Of a stretch of DNA of 64,000 nt, positions 1,050 through 52,700 are shown piece by piece. Both the position numbers and the translations under genes were made by a program. The notes below the pieces were generated by a model that saw only the letters and a program-made list of their open reading frames with translations, was not told where the DNA came from and searched no databases. The DNA comes from Candidatus Desulfarcum epimagneticum (GTDB lineage Bacteria; Desulfobacterota; Desulfobacteria; Desulfobacterales; CR-1), in assembly GCA_900659855.1 (NCBI GenBank), contig CAACVI010000001.1:301179-365178 (forward strand), given 5' to 3'. Every line of letters begins with the position of its first letter. The first letter of the stretch is position 1.

Positions 1050-1556
1050 TCACGCTGTGTCTTTTCCCGTATTATCGGAGTCATCCGCCCTCACACTTTG
1101 AAAAAAACTATGGGTTTCTTTCAGTATGTCTATATATTTTTCTTTGATGAAATCGGTTTTTCCCGAGTCTGGGGCTTTGCCATCCAGATCAAGATATGAA
1201 AGCTCAATTTTCAGCAATTCGAGTTTGTCGGCGGTGTCCTTATACTTCAACGACAATTCATTAAAATCAAAAAAAGCCGAAATTCCGCTGACCACTCCTG
1301 TGCACGCTGAGATAATCAATGCGATGCTGCCCACGATGTCAGGGGGGCCGCCGAAATTAAGCCCCAAAAGGATCGTCACAATGGCGGACAGTCCCAAAGC
1401 CAGGCATTTGACAATGACGCCCATTTTGCCGTTTCGTTTTTGCCTGCCCATATATTTAGTGATGGATTTATCCAGTTCGCCATGCAAAAACTCCATTTTT
1501 AATTCCGGTTTCCCTGGTTTCTCTTTTTTGTTTTCCAGAGCCGCGGTTTCAGTCAT
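1050..1556 (-). CDS. SLATT/DUF4231-like two-TM protein
   Basis: A 168-residue membrane protein. A charged N-terminus (1-42) is followed by two predicted TM helices (about 45-66 and 74-96) separated by a short GGPPD turn, then a long cytoplasmic helix (about 100-160; FNELSLKYKDTADKLELLKIEL). This layout and the F-x-x-x-x-L-K-Y-K-x-T-A-D-K-L pattern match the SLATT/DUF4231 group, whose members are proposed membrane effectors in nucleotide-signalling and other conflict systems. The frame extends upstream to 1763, but ATG 1556 has a GAGAGGG ribosome site and the family-like N-terminus. No sensor enzyme (SMODS, SLOG, RT) is adjacent. An effector role is inferred from the family only. Confidence 0.7.
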   Translation of the reverse strand: MTETAALENKKEKPGKPELKMEFLHGELDKSITKYMGRQKRNGKMGVIVKCLALGLSAIVTILLGLNFGGPPDIVGSIALIISACTGVVSGISAFFDFNELSLKYKDTADKLELLKIELSYLDLDGKAPDSGKTDFIKEKYIDILKETHSFFQSVRADDSDNTGKDTA

Positions 1557-1609
1557 GTTTCCCTCTCTTTTTTTTATTTTTTTTGTATAGCGCCTGAACG
1601 AAAATAAAA

Positions 1610-2329
1610 TTAAACGATGGCCGCTTCCTCCCCGGCCCCAAAAAGTCTGGACGTTTCCGCAAGACACTGAGACTGCTCCGAAGGCGTGACAATGGCGCCG
1701 CTCAGCCAGGGAAATTTTCGCAGAGGGGATGCCTCGTACAGGTCCGGGCCGATTTTGTTCCAATGCGTCTCATAGACCTTGCCCTCTGAAAACAGCCAGG
1801 TGTGACGGCCTCCCCGGGACACGCCGAATCCGAATTTGACCCTTTCCAGGCCGGCGATATCGGCCTCATTCAACGTGGAGGGGCCCGCGTTTTTATTGAG
1901 CTTTTGAAACGCCGGATGGGAGTCCGGGGTGACATTGTAATTGTGAACCCTGTGCTCCAGGGGGATTTTATAGTACCGGCGGGTTTTTTTCGCCATATGG
2001 CTGGTGTAGCTGTGCTCCTGGTCGGCGTCGATGGGGTGCGCCGAGTCCGGGTTGATATAAATTCCCTTCCAGCCGTGATCGGTCACCAGAAACCGGGCGA
2101 GTTCGGTTCCATGTTTTCCCAGCCCCCAGGCCCGGGCCGCCGCCGCCTCATTCCCTGTTTTTTTAAACGCGTGGCCAATCACCCTGAGCGCGTACGTAAT
2201 GCAGTCGGTCGCCTCATGGTCCCGGTACCGCTCCGGGTCCCTTTTTTTCAGCACACTGCCCACTTCGTGGGAATGGTTGTGAAACAAATCCATCATTTTT
2301 TCATGGGCGTATTCTGAAAAGGTTTTCAT
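1610..2329 (-). CDS. Uncharacterised Cys/His protein, possibly papain/NlpC-like
   Basis: A 239-residue soluble protein without signal peptide or TM segment. Two features suggest a thiol peptidase or amidase fold: Cys43 at the head of a helix (ATDCITYALRVIGHAF), and His176 at the start of a beta strand (GGRHTWLFSEGKVYETHW), followed by a hydrophobic C-terminal strand (FPWLSGAIVTP). The Cys-helix followed by a His-strand is the order in NlpC/P60 and related papain-like folds, but sequence similarity to a named family is not certain and a third catalytic residue is not identified. ATG 2329 has a GGGAG site 5 bases upstream. It lies in a same-strand run with the lysozyme-like and tail-fibre genes, so a lysis or cell-wall role is possible. 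Confidence 0.55.
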   Translation of the reverse strand: MKTFSEYAHEKMMDLFHNHSHEVGSVLKKRDPERYRDHEATDCITYALRVIGHAFKKTGNEAAAARAWGLGKHGTELARFLVTDHGWKGIYINPDSAHPIDADQEHSYTSHMAKKTRRYYKIPLEHRVHNYNVTPDSHPAFQKLNKNAGPSTLNEADIAGLERVKFGFGVSRGGRHTWLFSEGKVYETHWNKIGPDLYEASPLRKFPWLSGAIVTPSEQSQCLAETSRLFGAGEEAAIV

Positions 2330-2362
2330 CTCGTCTCCCTTTTTCGTCTTTTCCCGGCTTTT

Positions 2363-2842
2363 TTATTCTCCCCGGAGGGCCTTTAACACTTTGGCGATGA
2401 ATTTGAGCCCCAGGATTCCAAGCTCCAGGTGCTCCTCCAAATCCAGATCATCGATTTCCGCCGGTATGCCCGCGGCGCCGCTGGACGCTTTTTCCAAAGC
2501 CTCCAGGAAAGACGGGGAATTCTGGAGTTTGACGAACAGCGAGGTGTCTATTTTTGAGTTTTCCCTCAGCTCCCGGGCCAGAAAAGTCGCGAGCAGAATC
2601 ATGCAGTCGACAAATTCCGTTGTTTCTTTGATCCCTTTGAATTTGGACTCAATCTTTCCGATTTCCTGAAGCTGACGGGGCGTGGCGATGTTGATGGCCC
2701 GCTCGATTTCTTCCAGCGAGGCGTTTTCCTTCTGAAACAGGGTGGCGGATATTTTCTGGACCGCAAGACCGGCCGAGGGGTTGTTTCCCGAAATCGTGGC
2801 GGAGGTGACGGTGGCGGCTATTTCCAGCAAATTTTCAAACAT
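2363..2842 (-). CDS. Unknown helical protein; phage-type helix motif
   Basis: A 159-residue protein that is largely helical by sequence. The N-terminal third has small-residue-rich helices, followed by SLEEIERAINIATPRQLQEI then a Lys/Glu-rich segment. That block resembles the 'ATPEQL..L...D.EFK' segment found in some phage holin-like (3TM) and tail-adjacent proteins, although the strongly hydrophobic TM segments of a holin are not evident here. The C-terminus is acidic (IDDLDLEEHLELG) then basic. AAGGAGA lies 8 bases before ATG 2842. It sits between the coiled-coil membrane protein and the Cys/His protein on the same strand. I cannot assign a function. Confidence 0.5.
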   Translation of the reverse strand: MFENLLEIAATVTSATISGNNPSAGLAVQKISATLFQKENASLEEIERAINIATPRQLQEIGKIESKFKGIKETTEFVDCMILLATFLARELRENSKIDTSLFVKLQNSPSFLEALEKASSGAAGIPAEIDDLDLEEHLELGILGLKFIAKVLKALRGE

Positions 2843-2871
2843 GTCGGTTTCTCCTTATGGGTTTAAAAAAA

Positions 2872-4101
2872 TCATGCGCCCGCTTCTTTCTCTGTTTCAG
2901 CGGGGGGCGGTTTCTTTTGAGCGCCCGGGCCGAATTTGGAGATCATTTCGATGAATTTGTCCATGACGGCGAACAGCGCCTCCACATTGTAGCCCGCCAG
3001 AAAGGCGAGCGTCATGGGGGACAGGCTTCCCGCCACGCTGAGGTCATCCGGTTTTAAAAACCAGCCGATGGCCATTCCGGCCAGAAGGCCCATGGTGATT
3101 CTGAGTCTGTATTTGGTTTCTGAATGGCGCGTGTAAGTCAGATTTTTGATTTCCACGGCAAGGCTTCGCAGCGTGTATATAATGGCGCCGAGCAAACCGT
3201 ATAACAAAGGAAGCCCGTATATCTGAAGGCTTCGGATCACGAACTCCGCGGATATTCTCGTTAAAAAAAGTTTGTTTCTCTCTTTGTCGAATTCCTGCTC
3301 AAACGTTCGTTTCTTTCCTTCGAAGCGAAGTCTTTCCAGCGCGTTCCGCTTCGCTTTGCTGACATCCGGCGCCATGTCCCCGGTTTTCAGGGCCACAAGG
3401 ATTTCGGAAATTTCATTCGCGATTCTTTCCATATCGTGCTCATACTTTTTCCGCGCGTAATGGGTGATTTCCGCCTCAAACTGCTTGTGAAAAATCAGTA
3501 TTTGCCAGAACCTGTTCCAATCCTGCAAAAGCTGATAAGCGGCCCCGAATTCCTGGATCAGCGCCTTTTTCTCATTTACCAGCTTGTTGATCTCGATGTC
3601 GTGTTCGAGATCGGCGTGGTTTTTGTCCTGTTTTCTTTTGTCGATATTGAGGCTCACCGCGTCGATCCGGGTGAACAGTTTGTCGATTTTTGCCGTCAGA
3701 TCCGATCCGTTGATCCAGTAAATCTGGGCCAGCAGAAGAAGGACAAGGGAAACAGCGGTGAGGCGCCGGTACTTGGAAACGGAAGACGCCGCCTCTGTGG
3801 ATTTTTTTTTCTTTCCGTCGTCCTCATCGCTCAGGGGATCAGGCAGGGCGGCCTTCAGGCTTTCGATGCTGACCGGTTTGATGGAAGAGGCCACTTTGTC
3901 GTAGGCGTTCCAGAAACGAAGCTCATCTTCGGGGCTCCAGTCGTTTCGCTCCATTTTGTATTGGGACCTGATCAGGGTTTTCGCGGCTTCGGAATCCAGC
4001 GCGGCGGAGCTGTGGCGCGCCACATATGAAATCAGTATCCGGGACTCACGCGCCGCCTGTTTCATATAATCCGATATGTTTACGTTTTTTTCAGGTCCCA
4101 T
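2872..4101 (-). CDS. Coiled-coil membrane protein, unknown function
   Basis: A 409-residue protein. One TM lies at about 112-131, followed by a charged coiled-coil region of roughly 160 residues (135-290; periodic K/E/D with DKLFTRIDAVSLNID). A C-terminal membrane block of three TM helices (about 295-312, 333-350, 360-380) contains LLGAIIYTLRSLAVEIKNLT and a Pro-rich tail. Residues 55-67 (WSPEDELRFWNAY) match a segment near the C-terminus of the neighbouring lysozyme-like protein (WKTEDELKLLDAY). The start ATG shares its A with the TAA stop of that neighbour (TAATG), so the two are probably translationally coupled. Envelope-spanning or scaffold roles are possible but unproven. Confidence 0.6.
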   Translation of the reverse strand: MGPEKNVNISDYMKQAARESRILISYVARHSSAALDSEAAKTLIRSQYKMERNDWSPEDELRFWNAYDKVASSIKPVSIESLKAALPDPLSDEDDGKKKKSTEAASSVSKYRRLTAVSLVLLLLAQIYWINGSDLTAKIDKLFTRIDAVSLNIDKRKQDKNHADLEHDIEINKLVNEKKALIQEFGAAYQLLQDWNRFWQILIFHKQFEAEITHYARKKYEHDMERIANEISEILVALKTGDMAPDVSKAKRNALERLRFEGKKRTFEQEFDKERNKLFLTRISAEFVIRSLQIYGLPLLYGLLGAIIYTLRSLAVEIKNLTYTRHSETKYRLRITMGLLAGMAIGWFLKPDDLSVAGSLSPMTLAFLAGYNVEALFAVMDKFIEMISKFGPGAQKKPPPAETEKEAGA

Positions 4102-5360
4102 TACGTGGATAAAAAATCATTTTTTTCCCCGTCCCCGCCCATGCCTCTCCCAAAGCTTCCCCTTGCGTCGGACAATACGCCGCTGTCCCGATATTTTTGA
4201 ACCGTCTTGGCTCTTTTTTCAGCGTGGGTCATGGGATGAAGGCCGTATGTCTCCCGGATATTCAGGTAGGCGTCCAGCAGTTTAAGCTCGTCTTCGGTTT
4301 TCCATGAAGACGGGTCAGGATCGGGCAGGGCCGCCGCGTCCATGGCCTCCTCCAGGCACGGCTGTATATAGCCGGGCCGGTTGATATGGTTGTCGAGTAT
4401 GAGCGCCACCCCGTATTCCGAAGTGATCAGCTCGGAAATGAGGCGCTCTTTCACTTTATACGAGTCTTTGCGGTAAAATGAGTTTATCCTGGAAATCGCG
4501 TGCTCCACCTGGGCCAGCTGGATTGAAAAATCCTGTCCTGAAAGCCAGAAATAAAAGGCCCATTCGTGACTTCTCAGCCGGCTTTTATCCACAGGGCTTG
4601 CCATCTCTTTTCCGTCAAGCGTTAAAAAGCCTGAAATCCGACTGGTTTTCGGAGTGATGTCCAGTCCGCGCCGGCCGTAGTGTTTTTCAAACAGGGATTC
4701 GTCGCTGTCTTTAATCCGTTTAAGCAGGGCCGCCAGCTCCCCGGGCTGTTTGCCCGCCCCGGCCGTCCATTGAAACATGCCGAACGACAAAAAAGAGTTG
4801 TCCCATGTGTTGATGGCGTCCAGGTTTCCCTCGTTTTCCGACACCGCCATGATGACGTTTATCTCCGAATCATCAAAACCCCGGGATTTAAATTCCTCTT
4901 TTTTCTCCTGAATGACGGACGACGGTTTTTGTTTTCCGGCGGTGTACATCCCCTTCTTGAATCTGGCAAAGGTCGCGCTGACATCATCCAGAGAAACCGT
5001 CACCCTGGGCTTTTCATTCTTCTCGAATTCCTTGATGGTCAGCCCCTTGCCGGTCTGGTTTTTTCCCAATGGCTTCAAACGTGTTTCAACGGCGTCCACA
5101 ATGGCCCGGGCCACGGCGCCGGGCAGGTGAGAGCCCTGGGCGGTGATATTTTGAACAAACGCGTTGACGGCGTCCCGGGTCCGGTCTGTGTATATTCCGT
5201 CGTTTCCGGCGTCGTGCCCGAGATCGTTTAACAGCCGCTGCAAAAGCGCCACGCTTTCGCGGTCGGGCGAGTCTTTACGCAGGGTTTCATGAAGGTTTTC
5301 TTTGCGCGCCTCCATGAGTTTTTTGAATAGGTCCAGGTCTTTTTTTATGTTTTCGCTCAT
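4101..5360 (-). CDS. Peptidoglycan-binding, lysozyme-like protein
   Basis: A 419-residue protein without signal peptide. Residues 36-70 look like a peptidoglycan-binding domain (ALLQRLLNDLGHD, then DGIYTDRTRDAVNAF). Residues 155-330 resemble a lysozyme/transglycosylase fold, with NVIMAVSENEGNLDAINTWD (Glu175/Glu177 as candidate catalytic acid) and SFGMFQWTAG, the G-x-x-Q motif common in phage-type muramidases. The C-terminus (353-365) carries the W-x-x-EDEL motif shared with the next gene's product. GGAGG lies 10 bases upstream of ATG 5360. Lack of a signal peptide is usual for phage or tailocin lysins that rely on holins or are carried on a particle. The exact hydrolase class is not certain. 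Confidence 0.72.
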   Translation of the reverse strand: MSENIKKDLDLFKKLMEARKENLHETLRKDSPDRESVALLQRLLNDLGHDAGNDGIYTDRTRDAVNAFVQNITAQGSHLPGAVARAIVDAVETRLKPLGKNQTGKGLTIKEFEKNEKPRVTVSLDDVSATFARFKKGMYTAGKQKPSSVIQEKKEEFKSRGFDDSEINVIMAVSENEGNLDAINTWDNSFLSFGMFQWTAGAGKQPGELAALLKRIKDSDESLFEKHYGRRGLDITPKTSRISGFLTLDGKEMASPVDKSRLRSHEWAFYFWLSGQDFSIQLAQVEHAISRINSFYRKDSYKVKERLISELITSEYGVALILDNHINRPGYIQPCLEEAMDAAALPDPDPSSWKTEDELKLLDAYLNIRETYGLHPMTHAEKRAKTVQKYRDSGVLSDARGSFGRGMGGDGEKNDFLST

Positions 5361-5420: not shown

Positions 5421-7679
5421 CTAAAACATGGCCGCGCAGTCGCCTCCGAACAGGATATCGCCTTCCATCACGCCGCCCGCTTCTCTCACGCTTTCATGAT
5501 TCGTGACATCCGCGTTGGGCATAATCCCGGCCAATTTTATTTTCTCCGTATCGGTGAACACATTGGTGTCGGGATTGGACTCATACAAAACTTTAATCTG
5601 CTCCGGGGTTAAAAGCGCGCGGAACCCGTCGACCTGGCTTTGCAGAGCGGTCTCCAGGTTTCCCACCTGGGAATTGAGTTTTTCGTTCATATTGGTGATA
5701 AACTCATTTCTCAGGTTCAGGGCCAGATCGCCCATGTCGCTTTCGAGCTTGTACAGATTCTCATTGACGGTTTTGTTGATGTCGGTTTTGAACGTGTTTA
5801 AATCGCCCAGCATTTCCTGAATCTTGGTTTCGGATATATTCCGGACCCATGATTCGTTGATATTGCCAAGCTGATTCTGGATATTGGCGATGAGGTCGCC
5901 GAGATTATCCAGGGTGACCGTATTGTTGGCCAGATCAACCTCAACTTTTCCCAGCCGCTGATTGAGAGCCGTGTTAATCTGATTTTTGAAGTTCTCCAAG
6001 CCCCCCACCACTTCCTGAATCTTTGACTCGGATATATCCCGGACCCACGATTCGCTGATATTGCCCAGCTGACCCTGCATGCGGGCGATGGCGTCGGCGA
6101 GATTGCTCAGGTCCACCGCATTGTTGCTCAAATCGCTTTCAAGCTTGGCCACCTTCTGGGTATTGCCGCCCAGGTCGCTTTCAAGTTTGCTGACCTTCTG
6201 GGCGTTGTCTCCCAGATCGCTTTCAAGCTTGGTCACCTTCTGATTGACGACTTTGTTGATCTCGGTTTTAAAACTATCCAGATTCCCGGACAACTCTTTT
6301 ACCCTGGGCTCTAACACCCCCCGGACCCATGACTCGTTGATATTGCCTAGCTGGCCTTGAAGGCGGGAAATCACATCGCCGAGGTTTTGCAGGGTGAGTT
6401 TATTGTTCCCCACATCCACCTGAACGGCGCTCAGCTTCTGGTTGCAGGCGTTGGTCATTTCCGTTTTGAAATTGTTGATCCGATCGCCCAGTTCCTTGAG
6501 CTGCTCCTGTGTGACGCAGTCCATTTCCGGATGGGTGTGGCTGGCCTCTCCCACCTGATTTTTAAGGGCGTCAATCTCCTTGCTGATGGTCCCGATGAGT
6601 TTGATGCTTTCCAGATGGGCCGGGGTCAAAAACTTGTGGGTGGAGCCGTCTTTGACATAATCCGCGCTTAACACCTTGTCCAGGGTCAGGGACTGGAGCT
6701 TGTCGCGTAGCTGCTCGGGGGTGTCCTGGGTGGCGCCGGATTCAATGGTTTCAAGTTTGGTCTGTAAGCGGTCTATTTCCCCGCGCTCTTTGTCCGTGAA
6801 GAACCGGTTTTCGGACCCGGGCTGTATGGAATCGGCGTCAAGACGCTGGGAGCTTTTGAGTTTTTCGAGTTTCTCGCGGATTTTTTCAGGCGTGTCAAAG
6901 GTGGCGTTTGGATCTATGGATTCAATCTTTTTTTTCAGATCATCCGTCAGGCGGTTGACGTCCTGAATGCTTTCGTACATGGTCGCAATTTCTTGCGCGC
7001 TCAAGTCGTCTGTGGCGCCGTCCTGTACAGAATCAAGCTTTTTCTTGTCTTCTTTTGTGAAGTGGACATTTTTTGACCCGGATAAAATATCATCCAGGGT
7101 GTCTTTGGATTTCAGCAGGAAGTCGGATGAATCCACGTCCATGCTTTCGGCTTCGCTGACTTTCTCCCACTTTTCCTCCGGGGTCTGGATATACGTGGCG
7201 CCCCCGGCGCCCACCGTCTTGTCCTCGCTGGCGTCCAGGACAAACACAAACTGACCTTCGTGTTTGTCCTCAGAGGGGATTTTCTCCATGTCGCCGATGG
7301 TTCTGACAACCGTGGTGGCCCTTAAATCGGCGGGCAGCTGATCCCGGAGGACCTTCCCGTCCGGGCCCAGGGCCGCGTAGCTGCCGGGCTCGCCTTTGGC
7401 GCTCAGGAAATCCTTGGCCTCCCGGATGGTGTTGGCCATGTCCTCGTCAAGGGGCTGATCCACCTTGTACGGCAATTTATTCCAGGGATCAATGCCGTTT
7501 CCTATCTTGATTTTTCCGGTGTCCCGCTCATAAGCCAATTCCCCTGAAAGCAGCGTGGGGTCTTTGCTCATAAAGCATGCGGCGTCTCCCTGTAAAATCT
7601 GTATCCGGGTGACTCTCCTTCTTTCCGCGGCCTCAGCGTTTGTCAGATTAAATTTCAATTTTTCATCCCTTGCGTCCAT
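5421..7679 (-). CDS. Tail-fibre-like protein with Mtd-type N-terminal domain
   Basis: A 752-residue fibre protein. Residues 24-72 match the N-terminal domain of phage major tropism determinant/tail-fibre proteins (PTLLSGELAYERDTGKIKIG, then DPWNKLPYKVD). A Gly/Pro linker (GEPGSYAALGPDGKVLRDQL) and tail-fibre repeats with FTDKE and IESGATQDTPEQLRDKLQSL follow. Then come a SHTHPEMD motif and a coiled-coil stalk with three copies of a roughly 85-residue repeat marked by QLGNINESWVR / QLGNISESWVR. The tip has another FTDTEKIKLAGI unit. AAGGAGG lies 7 bases before ATG 7679. Such proteins normally sit at the tip of a phage, tailocin or contractile injection tail and bind the target; no other tail structural gene is in the window. 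No C-type-lectin variable region or DGR repeat was seen. Confidence 0.8.
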   Translation of the reverse strand: MDARDEKLKFNLTNAEAAERRRVTRIQILQGDAACFMSKDPTLLSGELAYERDTGKIKIGNGIDPWNKLPYKVDQPLDEDMANTIREAKDFLSAKGEPGSYAALGPDGKVLRDQLPADLRATTVVRTIGDMEKIPSEDKHEGQFVFVLDASEDKTVGAGGATYIQTPEEKWEKVSEAESMDVDSSDFLLKSKDTLDDILSGSKNVHFTKEDKKKLDSVQDGATDDLSAQEIATMYESIQDVNRLTDDLKKKIESIDPNATFDTPEKIREKLEKLKSSQRLDADSIQPGSENRFFTDKERGEIDRLQTKLETIESGATQDTPEQLRDKLQSLTLDKVLSADYVKDGSTHKFLTPAHLESIKLIGTISKEIDALKNQVGEASHTHPEMDCVTQEQLKELGDRINNFKTEMTNACNQKLSAVQVDVGNNKLTLQNLGDVISRLQGQLGNINESWVRGVLEPRVKELSGNLDSFKTEINKVVNQKVTKLESDLGDNAQKVSKLESDLGGNTQKVAKLESDLSNNAVDLSNLADAIARMQGQLGNISESWVRDISESKIQEVVGGLENFKNQINTALNQRLGKVEVDLANNTVTLDNLGDLIANIQNQLGNINESWVRNISETKIQEMLGDLNTFKTDINKTVNENLYKLESDMGDLALNLRNEFITNMNEKLNSQVGNLETALQSQVDGFRALLTPEQIKVLYESNPDTNVFTDTEKIKLAGIMPNADVTNHESVREAGGVMEGDILFGGDCAAMF

Positions 7680-7747: not shown

Positions 7748-9373
7748 TTACAGACCATAAAAGGAACGGATTTGATCCACGATTTCTTTTTCGGCGCCCT
7801 CTTTTCCAAACAGCGTTTCAAAACCCGCCTCATTTTCATGATGTTCCCGGATGATCTCGCTGAAATCCCGGGACAAAGAGGGCCTGCGCTCCAGTATCTC
7901 TTTCATAAGCGGCGGGCGGATGGCGATGAGATCGACGTGGCCGACGGCCTCGTAAGAGGACAGGCCCTTTGACAGTCCGGTCAGCAGTCTGATTTCTCCG
8001 AAAAAATCACCCGGATACAGAGTCTTTGAGCAGAGTTCCGGAACATGCTCTAAAAATCGCTCCCGGTCCTTTTCGTCCTCCAGCTCCGCCGCCAGAAGGG
8101 TGTGCAGCCGGATCGGGTCCAGGGTCCTGCGCGCCGCCTGTCGAACCAGGGTCCGGCCGATGGGCCCCACAAGGGGGACAAAATGTCGGGAAATCTCCTC
8201 AAGAGCTTCAGAACTCCACAAAAATTCAGATGCCTCCGCCGCCTCCTCTTCATCCGGCAGCGCGCACTCCTGCGAGACCTCGGGCATATACTCCCGGCGC
8301 GCCCTTCCGGCGGCGATGATGAACATGGCGTGTTTGAACCGTTTTTCAAACACGATGGGCTCTTTATTGGAAAACATCAATGTCTCCATATGGTCGGCCA
8401 GATACGTTTTTTCGTGTTTGTCCAGCGGTTTTAAAACAGGCGAGCTGAACAGAATTTTTGAATAATCCCCGGGCCGCAAATCCGAGTGGGGCTTTTGTTT
8501 TTCAAAAAAATGCGGCGCCGTTAAAACGCCGGGCTTTTTCCACACGTTGAGCACATCCACCCCGTTTCTTAAAAACGCGTACCAAATCCGCTCTTTCACC
8601 GCGGCCATGGCGGGAAACTGGGACATAAAATCCTTGCAGAAAAAGATGATGTCATAAAGATTCAGCCGGTCATCGGGGTCCATGTCGGTCATGTTGACGA
8701 TGACGGGCCGGGAGTCGTCCACCTGGGGGACGCTTAAGACCACCCGGGTCACGATTTCCCTTACTTTCTGCGGGGGGTGGGAAATGGGCGCGCATATTTT
8801 TATTTTCACCCAGACCGGCCGGCCTTTATGGAACACCTCCACATCGGCGGATGAGATTTTGCCGTTGGGCACCACGATAAGGGCGCCCGACAGGGTTCGG
8901 ATGGAAACCGAGCGCCATGTCAGCGCCTCTATTGCGCCCACGATATTTTTTAGACGCACGGTGTCGCCGATGTAAAAAATCTGTTCGACCTGGAGGGAGA
9001 GCCCGCTGAAAATGTTTCCCAGCGTCGCCTGCAGGGCGAAACCGACCACCGCCGTCAAAAGAGCCGATGTCGTCAATAAAGCCGCGATGTTCATGTTGAA
9101 CGCGAACTTCATCAGCAGGCCCCCGAGCGCCGCGTACAAAAATCCCGACACGATCACGCGCATCAGCTCCGACGGATTTTTTTGTGTGTCGGAGCCGAAT
9201 TTTTTTTCAACCGCCAGGTAAGTGATGGCCCGGACCGCGATAACGCCGGCAAAGACCCAGAAAATCCGGGAGACGTAAAAGAGGTATTTCTCATCGACAA
9301 AATCCGGGTGACCCGCCATAAAGAGGTAAACCAGCCCGATGATGAGGGTTAAAAGTATGAAAAATAATTTCAT
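7748..9373 (-). CDS. MscS-type channel with C-terminal cyclic-nucleotide-binding-like domain
   Basis: A membrane channel of about 541 residues. Several N-terminal TM helices lead to the MscS pore region (TAVVGFALQATLGNIFSGLSL) and beta domain (FYIGDTVRLKNIVGAIEALT, then IVVPNGKISS). The C-terminal part looks like a cyclic-nucleotide-binding domain interrupted by about 100 residues: a first half (LDKHEKTYLADHMETLMFSN, then FIIAAGRAR), an inserted helical segment with LVGPIGRTLVRQAARR, and a second half (YPGDFFGEIRLLTG). The frame can also start at TTG 9388, directly after the TAA of the upstream heme-sensor gene; ATG 9373 is chosen here without a strong ribosome site. Coupling to that sensor is likely. 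The gating ligand is unknown. Confidence 0.85.
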   Translation of the reverse strand: MKLFFILLTLIIGLVYLFMAGHPDFVDEKYLFYVSRIFWVFAGVIAVRAITYLAVEKKFGSDTQKNPSELMRVIVSGFLYAALGGLLMKFAFNMNIAALLTTSALLTAVVGFALQATLGNIFSGLSLQVEQIFYIGDTVRLKNIVGAIEALTWRSVSIRTLSGALIVVPNGKISSADVEVFHKGRPVWVKIKICAPISHPPQKVREIVTRVVLSVPQVDDSRPVIVNMTDMDPDDRLNLYDIIFFCKDFMSQFPAMAAVKERIWYAFLRNGVDVLNVWKKPGVLTAPHFFEKQKPHSDLRPGDYSKILFSSPVLKPLDKHEKTYLADHMETLMFSNKEPIVFEKRFKHAMFIIAAGRARREYMPEVSQECALPDEEEAAEASEFLWSSEALEEISRHFVPLVGPIGRTLVRQAARRTLDPIRLHTLLAAELEDEKDRERFLEHVPELCSKTLYPGDFFGEIRLLTGLSKGLSSYEAVGHVDLIAIRPPLMKEILERRPSLSRDFSEIIREHHENEAGFETLFGKEGAEKEIVDQIRSFYGL

Positions 9374-9388
9374 TTTTGATTTTATCAA

Positions 9389-10285
9389 TTAATCTTCTTT
9401 TGATTTCCCTTTGATTTTATCCATGGCCTTTTTCAGGCTGATGTCGATTCGCCGGATGGCCTGGGCGAGTTTTTTCATCTCCCGGCTGTGAATTTCGGGC
9501 AGGCCTTCCCCCGCGTTTTTCCCAAGGCTGATATTTTCCGTGATCCGGGTGATCCTTGAAAGGGGCCGGACCAGCCATCTGGAAATCATGAAATTGATGG
9601 AGACCAGCATCACGGCGAACAGGGCGATGAGGGATATAAACATGGTGAAAAGGCTTTCCACGGCTTTTTGCTTGGGAATCGACATGGGAACGGAGACCAG
9701 GTGCGCCCCCACCACTTCCCCGAGTTTCCAGTTCATTCCGTTCACCGGGCCGTATTTTTTCACCAGGTTTTTCGGGGCCGTCTCCGCGTCCGTGTGGCAT
9801 TTCAGGCATTTTTCATCGGTGATTCGAATGGGATAGGTGATATACAAATATTCTTCGCCCTTCTTTTCCCGGGTATAAACCATTTGTTTTTCCTCGGGAT
9901 GGTTGACATAATGCCGAAGAATCTCCACTTCCCACGAGGTCGGCAGGTTATCCAGATTCCTCGGGTTTGCGGCCACTTCCCGGTAGGTGTACTCCAGATG
10001 TTTTTCATCAATGAACTTAAACATCCGGTTCGCCGCGTAAGCCGGGACGGCCTGGGGATGAAACACGTCTTCGGACCCGCATATCTTTTCCCTGAACAAA
10101 GGCTCCACCTCTTCCGCGGTGTAGCGCCAGGCGGCGAAGGCGTTTTCCAGCACCACCTCCGCCTCCATAATGGCCTCATACTTGGCCTTGCCCATCTCCA
10201 CAGCGTAAAAAATAAATCCGATGATCAGAAACCCGGCTAAAAAAATAGAGCCGAATATCAAATTAAACTTTTTAATAAGCCCCAT
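9389..10285 (-). CDS. DUF3365 (Tll0287-like) c-heme sensor with HAMP domain
   Basis: A 298-residue membrane protein with TM1 at about 9-29, a periplasmic DUF3365/Tll0287-like domain, TM2 at about 211-232, and a HAMP linker ending the protein. A single c-type heme motif, CLKCH (160-164), follows YLYITYPIRI. Tll0287-like domains are thought to sense redox or gas ligands. No kinase, cyclase or methyl-accepting domain follows the HAMP, so signalling must go to a partner; the next gene, adjacent at the stop codon, is a MscS/cNMP-type channel. ATG 10285 with AAGAGAG upstream is preferred to TTG 10309. The start overlaps the preceding small gene by 14 bases. Confidence 0.82.
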   Translation of the reverse strand: MGLIKKFNLIFGSIFLAGFLIIGFIFYAVEMGKAKYEAIMEAEVVLENAFAAWRYTAEEVEPLFREKICGSEDVFHPQAVPAYAANRMFKFIDEKHLEYTYREVAANPRNLDNLPTSWEVEILRHYVNHPEEKQMVYTREKKGEEYLYITYPIRITDEKCLKCHTDAETAPKNLVKKYGPVNGMNWKLGEVVGAHLVSVPMSIPKQKAVESLFTMFISLIALFAVMLVSINFMISRWLVRPLSRITRITENISLGKNAGEGLPEIHSREMKKLAQAIRRIDISLKKAMDKIKGKSKED

Positions 10286-10544
10286 TTTTTTCTCTCTTGA
10301 TTTTTTCAATGTATGCTTTCATCATCATCATATCCTCCACCATCTCCCGGGTGAGGGTCCGGTCTATTTTATACGGCAGCGCCCGCCATCTTCTCACGCC
10401 GTCTCCTATCTTCAGCCGGCCCGTGTCCGTTTCCAGGCCCCATTCTCCGGACAGAAGCATGGGGTCGGCCCGGGTGAGATTTTTTTCCGTGTCCTGGAAA
10501 ACCTTGACCCGCAACGCTTTCATATGAGGATTGAATGTGTCCAT
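10272..10544 (-). CDS. Small protein with Mtd-type fibre N-terminal domain
   Basis: A 90-residue protein. Residues 12-60 are clearly related to residues 24-72 of the tail-fibre-like protein encoded at 5421-7679: RADPMLLSGEWGLETDTGRL and then KIGDGVRRWRALPYKID compare with the SKDPTLLSGELAYERDTGK and KIGNGIDPWNKLPYKVD block. A short Met-rich helix (MVEDMMMMKAYIEKI) follows, with no stalk. It is either an independent small adaptor or a truncated duplicate of the fibre anchor. GGAGA lies about 10 bases before ATG 10544, and its 3' end overlaps the heme-sensor gene, which favours expression. Confidence 0.7.
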   Translation of the reverse strand: MDTFNPHMKALRVKVFQDTEKNLTRADPMLLSGEWGLETDTGRLKIGDGVRRWRALPYKIDRTLTREMVEDMMMMKAYIEKIKREKNGAY

Positions 10545-15882: not shown

Positions 15883-15981
15883 TTTTTTACGACGCTGTCC
15901 CGTGATTTTTTACGGGTTTATCAATCTTAGGGCCGAGGCTGATTAGCGCTTGCGGCGACCCCAAAAGCGTGATATGAATTT

Positions 15982-16094
15982 GAGTTTGTTGAGTTTGTTG
16001 AGTTTGTTGAGTTTGTTGAGTTTGTTGAGTTTGTTGAGTTTGTTGAGTTTGTTGAGTTTGTTGAGTTTGTTGAGTTTGTTGAGTTTGTTGAGTT
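15982..16094. repeat. Tandem 9-bp repeat, 12 perfect copies
   Basis: The unit GAGTTTGTT is repeated 12 times without a mismatch (15982-16089), plus a partial copy, ending 32 bases before the tRNA-Pro gene. Because 9 is a multiple of 3 it gives open frames on both strands (for example poly Thr-Gln-Gln or Leu-Asn-Lys), which are artefacts. Such a perfect array is probably variable in copy number between strains through slippage. Confidence 0.95.
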
Positions 16095-16126
16095 CGGGGG
16101 ATTTTTTTCCCGATGCCTGAACATGT

Positions 16127-16203
<77 letters not shown>

Positions 16204-16223
16204 TTTTTGAATCAAAAATTTAA

Positions 16224-43784: not shown

Positions 43785-46700
43785 TTAAGGCGCGGCCGGG
43801 GATTCGAGCAGGGGTTGGGCCGGCGCGTCATTCGACGCGTCGCTTCCGGGCCGGGAGACCCGAAGGACCCGGATGTTAAAGCGGGCCGGCGCGCTTTGGT
43901 CCTCGCCGTTCCGGTCCTTTCCGCCGCCGTCTTTTAAGACCGCGGTCACAGACGTTTTCCCGCTTCTGTTCCGACGGGGCGTGAACGTGAGGGTCCCGCC
44001 GGAAGAGATGGCGGGCTGGACCGCGAACAAGGACGGGCGCGAGGCTTTGACCTCAAAACGAAGTCTTTGCCCCGACTCGTCGGCCGGGCCGGCGCTGATG
44101 TGTTTCGCCCAGTTTCTCAAAACCCGCCTTCCGGCGCTCTGCCGGACCCGGATGTCGGCGCCTTTTGAAAACGACGGCGCGTCGTTCACGGAACGAACCG
44201 TGATCCCGAGCGTCACAGGCGCGCTTTGATCCGCGCCCCCGTTTTCCACTCCCCCGTCGTCTTTGGCCAGGACCGTGACACGGGCCTGTCCGTTTTGATC
44301 CGGGGCCGGGGCAAAGCTTAAAACCCCGTCTGAAGAGATGGCGGGCTGGGTGGAAAAAAGCCCCGGACTGCTTGTTGAAACCAGCGTGAATTGAACCGTC
44401 TGGTCTTTTTCGTTTTCAGGCCCCGGCAGGATGTCCTGGGCCCAGCCGGACAAAGGAACGCGCTGAAGACCCGCGTCCTCGTCCACGCTCTGCTCCGCGG
44501 CCGAAAAAGACGGCGGATCGTTCACCGGGCGGGCCGTGATCGTAAACCGGACCGGCGGCTCGTTTTCATCCAGATCAATTCCGCCGTGATCCCTTCCCCC
44601 GTCGTCTTTTAACCGAACCGTCACATTCGCCACTCCGTTGGCGTCGGGGCGAAGCATGTAGGAAAGGGTCCCGTTTTCGTCCATGACCGGGGCCTGGTGG
44701 AAAAAATTCGGGACGGCGCCCGGCGCCGTTTCACGGTCGTGGGTCAACACAAAGGCCGTCGCCTGATCCGACTCGTTTTTCGGCCCTTTGGCGATCTCCG
44801 ACGCCCATTTTTCAACGACCTGGGCCCCTGAGTCCTCAATGATATTCAGGTCCGGCCCCCTGACAAAGGACGGGGGATCGTTCACCGGACGGACCTGGAT
44901 CACGGCCGGGGCGCTTTGCGCGCTGTAAGGATGATATTCCCCGTTTTCAGACACATCCGCCGTTCTTCCGGGCCGGCCTTTGGTTTGGTCCCAGGCCCGG
45001 AAGGCGATTTGCGCCGTCCCGTTCCAGTCCGCCGACGGAACAAAGCGGATTCCGGCCGTCGGCTCAAGAAGCCGGGCGTTTGTCTCGCCCGCCGACACAA
45101 AGGCCGTCCAGTCCCCGCCGGGGCGGCGGTATTCCCACCGGCCCCCGTCGCTTTTGGCCGAGATCACGGCCATGCCGATTTCATCGCCCTCGGGGTCCGA
45201 CGCGCCTTGCAAAAAGCGCGAAACCATATCCCCGGCGCTGTCCCTTTCATCCTCCGGAATCGGGGAAAAGTCCGGAACGCTCCCCGGCAATGACGGCGCG
45301 TTGTTCACATAAGCCGGCCACGCCCCGAACACCGACATGTCTTCGTTGCCCAAATCGTCCACGGCGCTCACCGCGTGCTGATACCATTCCCCGGCGTCGG
45401 CCGACGCGTCCACATAAGAGGTCCGCTCTGCGGAGACGATCTCCGCCAGGGGAATCAAACCCGCCACATTCTTTATCTTCCCTGACCCAAAGGATCTCTT
45501 GCGATAAATTCTCCATTTGGCGAAATCCTTTCCCTTGTTTGAGATCGGGCTCCAGGACAGCGATATGGCGTTGTAAGTCCCCGATCCCGGGGTTTTGTCC
45601 GGAACCGCCTTCAAACCTTTGACTTTTTCAGGGGGGGTGGTGTCTTTGACCACAGAGCCCAGGTCCGCGAAATCGCTGGCGTTTCCGAAAATATCCATGC
45701 TCCTGACACGGGCGTGGAGCGCCCCGTCATCCCCGGTCTTCACTGAATACGACGCGTTTTTCATGAACAGATCAAACACATCCCCGGACGCGTCCGAAAC
45801 AAATGAGGCGTTCCGGGCGATCTGGAGATGATAAAAAATGCTTCCGGGCTCCCCGGCCGAATGCCTCCAGGACACCTTCACAGACCCTTTTCGGGTCTTT
45901 CCCGAAAGCTTTTCCACAGGAACCGGGGCCGGCACGGATGAGGGGCCGCTTCTTAAAAATTCCCGCAGACGGTCCGCCCCGGCCCGAAAACCCTCGCCCC
46001 CATGGTTATACAGCGCGATGATATGATCCAGGTAATCCGACGGCATTCGTTCCCCGAACTCCTCGTGGAAGCGCGCCCATGACACCCCGGGCAAAGAGGA
46101 CAGGCGGACATGCCCGTCTTTTGCGATAAAGGCCAGTCTCCGGCCGTCATCGGAAAAATCAAAACCCGACATTCCTGTGGAGGCGTATGAATGAATTTTA
46201 TGCCACAGGGGCAGGTGGTCTTTGTCCGGGGAAAACGCCGCGCAGTACAAATTCCCGCTTGAGTCCGAAGCCGCCAGCATGGCTTTCCCGCTGAATGTGT
46301 CGCTTCCCCAGTCATAATAAAATAAGTCAAAGCCCGACGGCGCAAACGGATGAATCCTTTCCCCGTCATACACTCCGAAATTGCCATGGATTTTTTTCCA
46401 GGGCTCCGATGAAGAGCCGGAATAATAAAGGCCCCGGTCTTCGTCCACCCCGATGATCGCCCCGCCGGCCAGGGGAAATATGTCCACAATCTTTGCCCCG
46501 GACGGATTGACCCTGGGGTCCTTTCTCAACGTCCAGCTCCACACATTTGAATCGATCAGGCCCATGGCCCGGGCCGAATCCATTGTTTTTTTGAACAGAT
46601 CGCCGGAAGATTTCCCATTCAGGCCAAACAGTCCCATGCCGGGAATCTTAAAAGAAGATGAAGACCCGTACCGGTAAAGGGAGCCGTCGGTGTCCAGCGC

Positions 46701-49700
46701 CCAGACCCGGCCGTCTCTTCCCGGGGCCATGGCCTTGAGCCGGGCGCGGGCGGGAACCTGTTTCATGGGCTCCGTCATATGCCACCACGCGTCCTGGCCC
46801 TCATGGTCTTTCATTCTGGCGTAAAGAGACCGGTCTTTCCAGGCGAACAAAAGCCCCCCGGGCCCTGTGCCGAAATCGTCGAACAGATACTGGGGAGGCG
46901 GCTCGTCTTCGGCCCCGGAGAAAATCGCCATGCCGATGAACCCGCCTGCGGGACCCCCCAACAGGAAGGCCGCGGCGCCCGACGCCAGAAGAATATCTCC
47001 TTCAAAAATTTCCAGAGCCTTTTTGTAATCCTTATTTCGAATGGCATCGTAAATATTTTGAGGATCAGAGACCGTCTTTCCCAAAATCGTTTCCCCTGCG
47101 CTTTTGAGGCCGCTGCCGACGCTTTTGAGGCCATCGCCAATAGAACTCCCAAACCCGGCCATATAAATCCGGCCCGGATAAGGGCCGGCAAGCGGAGCAT
47201 CCCCGCCCGGAAGATTTTGCGCCATAAATCTCACGGCGGACAGATCATCGCCCTCCACCGGCACATAGGCGCGGCTCACATGATGGAAACCCGCCTGATC
47301 CGAAAGACCCAGCGCCGCCAGACTGTAATAGGAATGCCCGAGCCTGTGCCTTTCCCGTGAAATAAAAGACCCCCCGCCGAATTTGACCCGGGTCTTGGTC
47401 GATTCAGGGTCGGCGATTTTGTTTGTGTTTCCCTGATCCATACCCAGCAGATGGGTTAAAAAATTCATGGATTTTTGGTTGAAACTCCAAATTTTTTCGC
47501 CGATCGCTTTTATTAACCCCGGGGGCTTTTGATTTTCGCATTCGTCTTTATACACGCATTCCCCGGGCCCGGCGTGAGTGAGGGTTAAAACCGTCTCAGG
47601 CGCCGGGGCCGCCATGGCGTCGCAGGACGCCCCGGCAAGGGACTCAAAACGCCCGCATCTCCAGCTCAAAGGGTATGCGTCATGGGACGCGTCCAGCCAT
47701 AAGCGCTCGGGATAGGGCGGGGCGCCCCATTCACGGGTCCCGTCCTCACGGGTGTGGAAGGCCGCCCCTTCACGGCACAAAGCCCCCCTGGCATAAATCG
47801 CGGACTGCCATTCGTGAACGCGCAGGTCGGGCATGCTGTCCAGGTATCCGCACGCGGGAGCGGGCGCGGCGATTTTGGCCGATTCCGGCACAATTTCGTC
47901 GTGAGCCGAAAACACGCCGGAGCTGTCCGGCTCCATGTTCACCCAAAGACTGCGGGAGCCGTCCAGAACCGCCAGACGTCTGCCGTCATGAGAAAGGCTG
48001 AAATCCGTGATCCCGCTTTCCGAGACCTGTGTCTTTTTCCATCGCAAAGGACCCTGATCCGTCCCTTTTAAATAAAGCGCGTAGTAAATATTGCCTCCCG
48101 AATCCGACGCGGCCAGGGACACATCCTCCCCAAAGGCGAAAATCTCAAACGCCACAGGCTCAAATGACCCGCCGCCCGGAATTGAGAAGTCATTTTCCAC
48201 TGTCTGCCAGGCGGAATGGCGTCCGGCGGAATAATAAAGCCGGTTTGCATGGTCCGCCGCCATAAGGGCGTCCCCGGAAAGGGCGAAAATCTCCCGGATA
48301 TTCGCCGGAAGCCCCGTCCTTTTTTCGGCATGCAGCCTCCAGTGATGGGGATGATACAGATCGTCATAGGAAAGGGAGGACGCGTCCCCGGGCGGGGCGA
48401 ACAGGTAAATGTCGCCGGCGTCATCCAGAAGCCACGTCATGGTGTCATAATAGTAATGTTTTCCAAAAACGATTTTGACTTCATGGGCGTTTGTGGACAT
48501 GGACCGGATATTTCGCCCCGGCGGCAGCCCCGCCCGTGTCAGCTCCATCCACGGGGAATCCTGCTTGCCGTTCGGATCGTCATGGCTGTGTTTTACCCAC
48601 AGCCGCGACCCTTTCCATCCAAAGCGTGTCATTCCTCTGGAGGCCGCGACACCGTCGAATCTCATGTCCTGACTCTCAAACCGAATCCTTCCCCCGGACA
48701 TGGCGTTTTTAACCTTAAAAAACATATCAGCGGCCGACGTTATGCTGTCGTCCACCACAAGCGACAGAAAGGCATGGCCCACCGGCGAGGATTCCATGGC
48801 ATCCAGGGTTTTCTCAATCTTCCAGGCGTGATCCACCCGATGATACCCCGGGTCCTCGATAAAATGGGTCCGCAAAGACTCCCGGCCGGATATCTTTCCA
48901 AACATCGGAGCCTTGCCCGCGTCCAGACCGACCAGCGGATAAAACGGCCGGGGACCCCGGCCCGGGGCCTCGGAAAAAACCGCGTCCCAGATATCAACTC
49001 TGGAAAGACTCAAAGATTCATGGGCCTTGAGCATGCCGGGCCAGGCGTTTTCAAACTCCCCGGGTCCGGTCTCCAGCGCCCGGGCCCTTCGCCTTGCCTC
49101 CGGAGTCTTCGGTTCGGCGGGCGTGTCCATGGAAGAGGTCCGGATGACGGCTGAAAGTTTTTTCACCTCCCCTCCCGTTTTGACATACAAATCCCCGCCG
49201 GGGCCCACGGCCACGCCCTCAAGCTCCAAAGGCGCGTCATAAGTCTTTTGAATGTCTTTTCCCTTCATCCAGTTGACGCATGACCATGACGCGTGGCCGT
49301 CTTTTATGGAATCCGCGATAAAATCTATCAGGCCCACGCCGATCTCCACCGCCGCCACAACCATCCAGGCTATGGGGTCCGCAAGAGCCGCCCCCGCCTC
49401 CGAGGCCTCTCCCGCCGCCTCCAGGTCCAGCGTCCCCGCCTCAACGGCTTCCCCCACGGTTTCAAATCCCGATTCCGACGCGATTTCCGACATTTCAGTT
49501 ATCTCCGTTCCGGAGGCTTCACAAAAATCCGAAGCGGTCCGGGTCCTTCCCGAAAATTCTGTTGTTATCCTGTGCCGCACGCCGCCGGGTCCCCTTTTCC
49601 AAAGACCATCACCCGGGGAGTTGGGATACGACGGGATTTCCGGGCTTATGCCCGGCTCGCCCTCAATCCCCTGGCCGGGCGGGGTGGAAGGCCTGGAGGG

Positions 49701-52700
49701 AGGGTTCGGAACGGGATCAGGCATACGGCTGCGCGTGGGGGGACGGTATTTATGAGCCTCGCGTCCTGCTCCTAATCCGGGAATAAGCCCCAGGCTCATC
49801 ACGGTCAGGCATTCGTTTCGGTTTTTAATAATATACTCACTTTCGGCCCCGGGGTCGCTTTGGGAAACGGTCTTTTTGCCCATGGAGGGCAGAATCAGCT
49901 TCCGGGGAGCGGCCCCCGGATCGTTCATATCCCACAGCCTTAAGTACGAATTCTTCAATTCGTTGACCAGAAAGGCGAAATACTTCCGGCCCCCCATGGA
50001 AAACGCCGTCGCGGCGCTCTCCTGCAGAATCACGCCCTGATCTCCCTCTTCTTCAAGCATGGGAATATTCAAAGCCAGGGGGCTTCCCCAGTCGGACCCG
50101 CCCGCGCTCTTTCGATACAGATGGTTGTCATAAATCCCGATCAGCTCGTCCCCGGCGGGAAAGGCCGTCACCTCCCGGGACCGGATGACATCCGGAACCC
50201 GGCGGGAAACCAGATCGTTGAACATTCGCGTGTGGGACGGGTCCGGCGGCTCAAAATTCGGGCTGTACCTGACGACCCTGTCCACCCTTTGAATATCCTG
50301 AATCACAACAGACAAATCCCCGGAAGCCGCCGATATGCTTCCGTTGACCACCGTCCCCCCGCCGGCGCTTCCCCGGATGGTGACGTTTCGGTTTGCCGTC
50401 ACGTTCCCGATGTCATGCGCGCCCGGCCCCAGCCGAATCACGCTCCCTTCCGGCGCCGCGTCTATGGCCGTTTGAAGCCAATGGCCGGCGTCGGGTTTCA
50501 AAGAAAAAATCAGGCCGCTTTCCCCGGCCATGGAGATGGCTGTCCGGGGATTGATTTTAAAGAAAAAACCGTCTATGACGCAGGTCTTGGCGGCCGGGCC
50601 CGTGTTGGCTCCAAGGGCCTTGATCGCTTCAATCTGATCTTCGGAAAACGGGGCGCTTTGCGCCGGCATTACCACGAATTTCACGCTTTGAATATGGCTG
50701 GGAATATAAAAATAAGGCCCCGGCTCAGGCGTGTGGGTCGCGCCCTGCTCCAAGACAATGATTCCTCCCGCGGGAGGCGCCAGCCACAGCGCCTGCTGAA
50801 GGTCCAAATGGCCCTGGCCTGTCTGCAAAACATCCTCAAAAGACGAAACCGCGCCCTGGTCATGCAAGGGATCATACCCGCGATCCATGTGGCGAATCTC
50901 CACCCCGGTCGGAACCCCGTCGCCATCATGGTCCATCCGATAGTCCGACGCCCGGGCGATCCGGACGGGATTTCCATCCACCAGTCTCACCTTCAGCCGG
51001 CCTTTTGAATTTTGACCGACCTTTAAATAATCCTCTGCGTTTCCAAAAAGAAACCCGTATAAATGGGGTGAAAAAGGAACGGGACCCAGAACATCGGAAA
51101 ACAATCTTTCATAACCGGTATCGGTTTTTCGATATATTTTGATGGTCGCCCGCCGGCTGTCATAATAGGAGGCATTGACAGTGTTTCCCCTGAAAAGCGT
51201 GACTCTGATCTCCTGGCCGGAACCAATCTCCCCAAGGCTCAATTCCCGTCCGGCGCCGTTTGCGTGATGGGTCAATTTCAACTCAATCCCGATTCCGCTT
51301 TTCACCCCGTATAAATCAATCCCGCCTCCTTTCAGGATATAACAGGCCGGGTCGGCGTCGTCGCCGTCGGATGAGGAGAACATGGAATCTTGCGATAAAT
51401 TGGAAAGCAGATGAATTTTTTCATAAGCGCCGGGAAGCTGAGTGAATTTAAATGTCATCCCCATGCCGAATCCAGTTTGATAGGGGCGCGGCGTCAGGCT
51501 GGAAATCTTATACGCCTCCAACTGCCCCGCGTCCCGTCCCATGGTCACAAAACCGTCCCCGTCCAGGAAACGGTCGGCTCTGCCTGTCCGCTCAAAAAAA
51601 TTCCGAACGCTTCCCGAGCCATCAAACGCGGTGAATTTTTTAAACCGCGTGTCCGTTGACGCGTCAATCCCCGCGATGACCGGGACAAATTCCAGGAAGT
51701 CTTCGTGAAGATCGCCCGGCGCGTCCCCGGCAGGCGGGCAGGAAGGCTGGGGCGTTTCAGCGGATTGGGTGGAAAACCTTCTGGCGTCGGGATGAGGAGG
51801 CGGTTGAGCGCAGCCTCCTTGAGGGAGAAGGGGGGTAAGTATTGGCAACCATTCCCAAACGGGCTGTCCGCCTGCAACCGCTGGAACAGGTTGAACGCCT
51901 GGGATATTCATCATATTAGCTGGGGGGTGTTGTCCGTTGAGCGGGTGGCCCTGAATAAGGACTGCTTGGTGATGCTCAGGATGCGGTTGTGCGGGCGCGG
52001 CTGGAGGCGCGACGGCGGTGGAGGGGGGAGGGGTTGTGGTATACACACCTTGAATCGTCCCCTGAAAGCCCCCATTCAGAAACTCTACCTCCGCATGGAC
52101 TGCGAGAGCGCCGGCCAGGATTATAACATTTTCAGGACTGGGCATCGTGAAGTACACGCCTTGTATAGGCTCTTGCTGTCCTATTATCACAACTCCGGCA
52201 AGATGAGCGTCACTGTCTTCCCCCGGCGGAGCCAGGTTTTGCATAATTATTGACAAATGAGGTTGAACGCCTTCAAAATGTGCGTTTGGATTATCCGGCA
52301 AATCGAAATCAACGCCACCAGAATCATTGGTTAATTGTTGGCTGTCAGCCAGATCATAAAGCGGTCCATGATAATTCTGGAATTCTGTTTCAGGGCCCCA
52401 AGGATCCAGCATATCAGCCCATTGTTCACCTTGGCCCGCCGCTTCCTGCGTCACCTCAACCGTCTCAACCGCCGCCGGCCCGGCGGGAAGCCACTGAACG
52501 CCCACGTTTTGCACAGCAGTCACCACCCACTGGTCAAGATGCATTCCAGCAGTCCCTTGCCCTTGCACATAATTTAATTGCACAGCGATAACGGCTTGAG
52601 GCCCCCCTCCCTGTGCAGCATGCGTCTCAATAAACAAAAGCGCTTGAGTATGGTCGTCCGTGAAAAAAATTTGTCCCCCCGCATTCAGATTTATAATCGT

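Follow-up and report, generated by a model that had tools for sequence, protein, structure and literature searches.

The locus studied here, in Candidatus Desulfarcum epimagneticum, raises the question of what a HAMP domain acts on when the protein that carries it ends there. The gene for such a receptor, a membrane-bound sensor with a predicted c-type heme domain, is followed immediately by a gene for a MscS-type channel. We analysed the pair within a window of 64,000 nucleotides, by which we mean the whole stretch of DNA taken from contig CAACVI010000001.1. An earlier sequence-only reading had noted that the sensor ends after its HAMP segment and had proposed that the channel may be a direct target of this HAMP.

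The sensor is a receptor without an output domain

The sensor and channel frames are both intact and lie on the minus strand. The sensor gene has the following features:

9389..10285, minus strand: output-less receptor of 298 aa, consisting of a TM helix, a predicted periplasmic c-heme Cache domain (Tll0287-like), a second TM helix and HAMP
9686..10186, minus strand: Tll0287-like (sCache_heme) domain, aa 34-200
9794..9808, minus strand: the single CXXCH heme c attachment motif of the sensor, CLKCH, aa 160-164
9416..9601, minus strand: HAMP, the final domain of the receptor, aa 229-290 of 298

The start codon is an ATG, and an alternative upstream TTG at 10309 is possible. The Cache domain was recognised by the Pfam model PF11845 with 125.9 bits against a cut-off of 24.1 (E 2.2e-36), and its match in the PDB was Tll0287 (5b82, E 0.0077). 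With the Pfam HAMP model the score was weak (15.3 bits, cut-off 25), whereas a HAMP profile made from the STAC-paired receptors described below gave 29.5 bits over aa 229-290. Since the HAMP domain reaches residue 290 of 298 in this profile, no domain follows it. Only 8 residues separate it from the C-terminus, which confirmed that the sensor ends after its HAMP, and HAMP is the sole cytosolic part of the protein, as in receptors of the Af1503 type.

When the organism's own genome was searched with the sensor at E<=0.001, the only match was the sensor itself. Five HAMP matches were present in this genome, and the window sensor was the single short, output-less protein among them. The other four HAMP proteins scored 59, 59, 53 and 33 bits with Pfam against 28, 47, 42 and 20 bits with the profile from the STAC-paired receptors, a trend opposite to that of the window sensor. 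These scores weakly support a likeness of the window HAMP to the STAC-paired class, weakly because Tll0287 receptors were among the seeds of the profile. The closest relative of the sensor was found at locus G050, with 47% identity over aa 2-126; the G050 frame stops at a contig end.

The channel has an insert in its cNMP-type domain

The neighbouring gene had been read as a MscS/cNMP channel whose frame begins right at the stop codon of the sensor. The position is correct: the stop-to-stop frame opens directly past the sensor TAA, and with the TTG at 9388 as start the gap between the genes is 0 bases, with an AAGAAG-like stretch upstream. The features of the channel gene are:

7748..9388, minus strand: MscS-family channel with a cNMP-type domain, TTG start at 9388 or ATG start at 9373 (541 aa)
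8552..9091, minus strand: MscS pore helix, beta and C-terminal domains, aa 95-274, from Pfam and the model
7811..8467, minus strand: predicted cNMP-type beta-roll, interrupted by an insert, aa 303-521, from VIA comparison to GlxR
8012..8305, minus strand: enlarged beta4-beta5 hairpin within the cNMP domain
8030..8215, minus strand: STAC-like ('GPIA') domain inside the hairpin, aa 387-448, from hhalign, profile search and shuffles
7967..7969, minus strand: phosphate-binding-cassette position, Lys469

The MscS part was clear in Pfam (MS_channel_2nd, E 2.5e-16; PF00924, 60 bits against a cut-off of 20.2). A structural model built with homologs had a mean pLDDT of 79.7, compared with 42.2 for a single-sequence model, and its MscS core was of high confidence. 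The model aligned with MscS over 250 residues (E 1.4e-14, Z 15.9, rmsd 3.9). The cNMP part matched Pfam with 14.2 bits, under the cut-off, but a cNMP-type fold is predicted by the model, where aa 303-521 aligned with GlxR over 131 residues (VIA Z 14.0, rmsd 3.1). The Foldseek and VIA lists for the channel model were filled by MscS and cNMP folds.

The binding cassette was compared with that of 28 homologs. FFGE is kept in the window channel, with FGE as in 28/28 homologs, but the cassette Arg, also found in 28/28, is replaced by Lys469, and the residue that follows it is Ser in place of an Ala that is likewise invariant. The label 'cNMP channel' therefore needs a caveat, because the Arg of the binding cassette is lost. 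MscS channels with a C-terminal cNMP domain are, we assume, bCNG-like. The window channel resembles the MscS-cNMP channels in its two parts and has 17-29% identity to their homologs of about 500 residues. It differs from all 28 in the missing cassette Arg and in an insert of about 80 residues in the hairpin. Counted in the alignment between the conserved Gly that ends beta3 and the cassette Gly, the hairpin has 98 residues in the window and 16-23 residues in 28/28 homologs. The cNMP domain is split by an insert that is predicted to be helical, with modelled helices at 375-385, 388-416, 420-430 and 434-443, for which the pLDDT was only about 55-75.

The pair of gene families is not conserved

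Conserved adjacency of DUF3365-HAMP and MscS-cNMP genes had been named as the point on which the proposed coupling should be judged, and it was not found. A contig scan with an alignment of seven channels yielded 37 channel loci. A Tll0287-like neighbour was present at 0/37, and any HAMP frame near the channel at only one (L243). In the 194 genomes of the order, the sensor had matches in 40 and the channel in 28, and among the places listed there were no neighbouring sensor and channel matches beyond the window pair. A conserved pair of Tll0287-HAMP and MscS gene families was rejected on these counts.

The channel itself was also followed in 389 genomes of the class, where no insert-bearing form was seen besides that of the window. 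The next-best channel scored 111.6 bits, compared with 1216 for the window, and had a frame of 494 aa; all eight non-self matches had frames of 490-509 aa, the length of the insert-free homologs. A contig scan with back-translated patterns found no close relatives of the channel. The insert-bearing channel beside an output-less sensor is a singleton, represented by one instance.

A family of small domains accompanies output-less HAMP receptors

In four loci of the order (G080, G125, G140 and G040), small-protein genes with a VGPIG-like motif were found beside or near output-less Tll0287-HAMP genes. Six such domains from these loci, with the window left out, were combined into profile A1, which had matches in 81/194 order genomes. 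We took the 80 best-ranked further places (not weaker than about 1e-16) together with the four first loci as a sample of 84 frames, and called a HAMP protein output-less when it ends at most 15 residues after its HAMP. Within this best-ranked sample, 71/84 frames had an output-less HAMP protein within 500 nt on the same strand. The partner lay downstream of the domain gene in 70 of the 71 and upstream in 1.

Four of the remaining frames were cut by a contig end and nine had no output-less HAMP neighbour. Among these nine exceptions, one neighbour had a HAMP with a 32-residue tail, and in another case the HAMP protein was 1088 nt away. In three, the neighbour begins like the STAC-paired receptors, with no HAMP recognised in that frame. 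The last four (L104, L107, L113 and L157) had another conserved neighbour downstream, a protein of 334-339 aa that is perhaps an alternative partner of these STAC-like genes. Overall, 75/78 HAMP frames in 651 kb of the best-ranked order loci were output-less. For the background, arbitrary stretches were drawn from 20 of these genomes (20 stretches, 316 kb); they contained a single HAMP frame, which had a 231-residue tail (0/1 output-less).

The survey was extended to the phylum with profile A4, made from the A1-type order domains and those of five loci in other parts of the phylum (L198, L199, L204, L206 and L207), again with the window left out. A4 had matches in 53/297 phylum genomes. Among the matches listed were 30 phylum loci, and an output-less HAMP protein was encoded on the same strand no more than 500 nt away in 22 of them and on the opposite strand within 1 kb in 3, with none in reach in 5. 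A HAMP and a GPIA domain fused in one frame was seen in none of the 30. The pairing of the GPIA domain with an output-less HAMP receptor is conserved, and its spread suggests a broad bacterial system of output-less HAMP and STAC in the Desulfobacterota.

The motif of the family is mostly (V/I)GP(I/V)A, and no model in Pfam or NCBIfam matched the domain. In the PDB, A4 had one significant match, AF1502 (5a1q, E 8.4e-4; next best 0.12), with the alignment centred on 'L.deL.k.iGPiA.i'. Adding the window sequence to A4 left this match about unchanged (E 0.0011). By this profile match the GPIA family looks like a bacterial form of STAC.

The STAC-bearing proteins of the survey include forms whose N-terminal parts we take to be wHTH-, DUF4388- and roadblock-like. 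For DUF4388 with HAMP, the literature search returned only a work known to us by its title, on a Chloroflexi nitrite reductase. One frame (L063:6334-7413) has three STAC-like domains in tandem and adjoins a zinc-ribbon Cache-HAMP receptor. Several STAC-paired receptors (loci among L061-L178) have a MJ0042-type zinc ribbon ahead of the first TM helix, so that a cytosolic N-terminal ribbon goes with the STAC-HAMP system.

The channel insert belongs to this family

The insert was compared with A4 by hhalign, which gave a probability of 89.8% (P 1.8e-6). A six-frame search of the organism's own genome with A4 at E<=10 returned a single match, the insert (window 8042-8209, E 0.0067). With the smaller profile A1 (six rows), the insert was not matched in its own genome at E<=0.01. 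Its best-domain score exceeded those of all 20000 shuffles (0/20000) for each of five profiles, with a narrow margin for A1 (9.7 bits against 9.1 for the best shuffle). Used as the sole query in the 194 order genomes, the insert was uninformative (best non-self E 0.0145). In STAC, an all-helical bundle of four helices with 60-90 residues, the motif LGPx(x)A lies between helices 1 and 2. The motif of the insert is VGPIG, which by comparison keeps the GP and has L changed to V and A to G. We conclude from these profile comparisons that the insert is homologous to the GPIA family. The insert alone had no AF1502 match in the PDB, so its link to Af1502 passes through the family profile (insert to A4 to 5a1q).

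The single STAC-like match of this genome and its single output-less HAMP are therefore neighbours. The gene order is reversed: STAC usually precedes the receptor in the order relatives, whereas at the window the STAC-bearing channel follows it.

Output-less Tll0287 receptors at other loci

PF11845 had matches in 144/297 phylum genomes, and 20 of these loci, with frames of about 290-450 aa, were taken for a survey of their neighbourhoods. In eight (L198, L199, L200, L202, L204, L206, L207 and L210) no more than about 16 residues follow the HAMP, and six of the eight (L198, L199, L202, L204, L206 and L207) had a STAC-like gene at a distance of up to about 2.2 kb. The same pairing with Tll0287 receptors occurs at the order loci G080, G125 and G140. 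This suggests that some output-less Tll0287-HAMP proteins have a separate partner.

A second conserved neighbour was observed in a set of nine output-less Tll0287-HAMP genes, namely the above eight and that of L063. A gene with domains that, from their motifs, we take to be TPR and OmpA-like directly adjoins seven of the nine:

L063:1852-2889, TPR + OmpA-like gene
L198:5708-6652, TPR + OmpA-like gene
L199:5755-6657, TPR + OmpA-like gene
L200:5761-6771, TPR + OmpA-like gene
L202:3851-4729, TPR + OmpA-like gene
L204:5738-6604, TPR + OmpA-like gene
L210:2720-3448, TPR + OmpA-like gene

Comparison with known systems

In Af1503 of Archaeoglobus fulgidus, HAMP is the sole cytosolic part, and according to PMC4834066, Af1503-like receptors are often coupled to proteins of 60-90 residues like Af1502, in surroundings enriched in transport genes. 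The STAC domain is described there by its LGPx(x)A motif; CbrA-like proteins have it too, flanked by a SLC5 transporter and a two-component module, and a role in the regulation of solute transport is proposed (PMC4834066). The window pair resembles Af1503/Af1502 in its HAMP-only receptor, its GP-containing, by the model helical partner domain, a setting near membrane transport genes and the match of the domain family profile to 5a1q. It differs in that the Af1502 STAC is a stand-alone protein of 68 residues, whereas the window domain sits inside a MscS-type channel, and in that the Af1503 receptor family is described as archaeal (PMC4834066), whereas the window sensor is bacterial and has a predicted heme c Cache domain. 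With the CbrA type (SLC5-STAC-histidine kinase) it has in common that STAC stands between parts for membrane transport and for signalling, but the CbrA type uses a SLC5 symporter and a kinase where the window has a MscS channel and, as a distinct protein, the output-less receptor.

For the sensor domain, the preprint PMC12889525 renames Tll0287/DUF3365 sCache_heme and reports that a HAMP-bearing transmembrane member from P. azotoformans binds NO tightly and a stand-alone member does not. The window sensor has, by its sequence, the same elements (PF11845, CXXCH, TM-HAMP). Unlike the sCache_heme sensors described there, it has no output domain and is coupled to a channel gene; neither STAC nor Af1503 appears in the main text of the preprint. 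A literature search that combined HAMP domain, MscS and cyclic nucleotide-binding domain found nothing; works on STAC with channels lie outside its terms. The sequence-only reading did not recognise a pairing of this kind. That applies to the two gene families, which were found paired only here, but the kind itself has an archaeal precedent in Af1503/Af1502.

A possible route from heme to pore

We lean towards reading the pair as a receptor and its effector, of the Af1503/Af1502 type, with the STAC-like partner built into a MscS-type channel, and the pore as controlled by a heme ligand or by redox. The periplasmic heme c Cache domain would respond to NO or a further heme ligand, or to a change of redox state, and the signal would pass the membrane through the second TM helix to HAMP. 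The HAMP, without an output of its own, would then act on the STAC-like domain in the beta4-beta5 hairpin. The cNMP-type domain would lie beneath the MscS vestibule, and since it is without the conserved phosphate-binding Arg, the STAC-HAMP contact probably replaces the cyclic nucleotide as the gating input, presumably by moving the cNMP-type ring. The proposal that HAMP acts directly on the channel is strengthened by a channel that carries a domain of the kind found with output-less HAMP receptors, and the adjacency of the genome's single STAC-like match to its single output-less HAMP adds weight; it is weakened by the missing conservation of the gene-family pair. As the inserted domain accompanies output-less sensors elsewhere, the channel itself may be the missing output of the sensor. 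The preferred reading also has against it the single occurrence of the combination, the failure of profile A1 to match the insert, the link to Af1502 that runs through the family profile, the altered motif, the modest model confidence of the insert, the reversed gene order and the four exceptions with a different conserved neighbour. In addition, the stoichiometry of such a coupling is awkward, with a dimeric HAMP receptor and a heptameric MscS channel.

A wider reading takes STAC as a portable HAMP-receiving module and the locus as its natural graft onto an ion channel, with HAMP and STAC docking at the former cyclic-nucleotide site. This we hold more tentatively and would sooner expect to see revised than borne out as it stands.

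Other readings of the pair

Sensor and channel might be merely co-transcribed, with the channel gated by tension or residual nucleotide and the insert stabilising it or binding another partner. The intact MscS core in a high-confidence model and the absence of a conserved gene-family pair agree with this, but it would leave to chance that this genome has its sole STAC-like match next to its sole output-less HAMP, which is improbable, and the missing cassette Arg also counts against it. We consider co-transcription alone unlikely. Quite improbable, in our view, is that the HAMP signal tunes a cNMP domain that still binds its ligand. The modelled cNMP fold and the preserved FGE would fit such tuning, but the substitutions by Lys and Ser fall on an Arg and an Ala that are invariant in all 28 homologs, and the Pfam match of the domain stays under the cut-off.

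The surroundings of the pair brought up a further possibility. The nearby features are:

10272-10544 and 5421-7679, minus strand: Mtd_N (phage tail-fibre N-terminal) proteins, the only two of the genome, flanking the pair
1050-5360, minus strand: same-strand row of genes for peptidoglycan-binding/endolysin-like, family-less membrane and SLATT-like 2TM proteins

The small Mtd_N gene (10272-10544) overlaps the start of the sensor by 14 nt, and the row at 1050-5360 possibly forms one island with the sensor-channel pair. The pair could then belong to a phage-derived cassette of tail fibres, an endolysin-like gene and membrane proteins, in which the channel would serve lysis or release under control of the heme sensor. 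Tail-fibre and endolysin families among the flanking genes, on the same strand with small gaps, would agree with this, as would the position of both Mtd_N proteins. However, the left flank is host-like, with genes that we take to be a tRNA synthetase, a restriction system and hemL, and no head or packaging genes were seen in it; moreover, sensor and channel match no phage family in Pfam or NCBIfam. We give the cassette very little credence. A full prophage was rejected, since with a host-like left flank the sensor-channel region is not a whole prophage. Finally, a redox function with no part in signalling, of the sort that PMC12889525 assigns to stand-alone members of the family, is hardly credible for the sensor, since it combines two TM helices with a HAMP, as does the protein that behaves as a NO sensor in that preprint.

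Elsewhere in the window, a short tandem repeat at 15943-16204 gives a long QTQQ or LNK run in two overlapping frames, and 43785-53684 on the minus strand holds an open frame of 3299 aa that has extended low-complexity regions and repeats in its C-terminal part.

If the wider reading of STAC as a portable module is correct, the locus would encode a gas- or redox-gated MscS channel whose opening depends on a distinct heme receptor without output, and it would show the function of HAMP receptors that lack an output domain. The way in which HAMP-terminated receptors hand on their signal is an open question for Af1503 and its relatives. Here the presumed partner of the HAMP is part of a pore, so that an electrical current could serve as a readout of the coupling.
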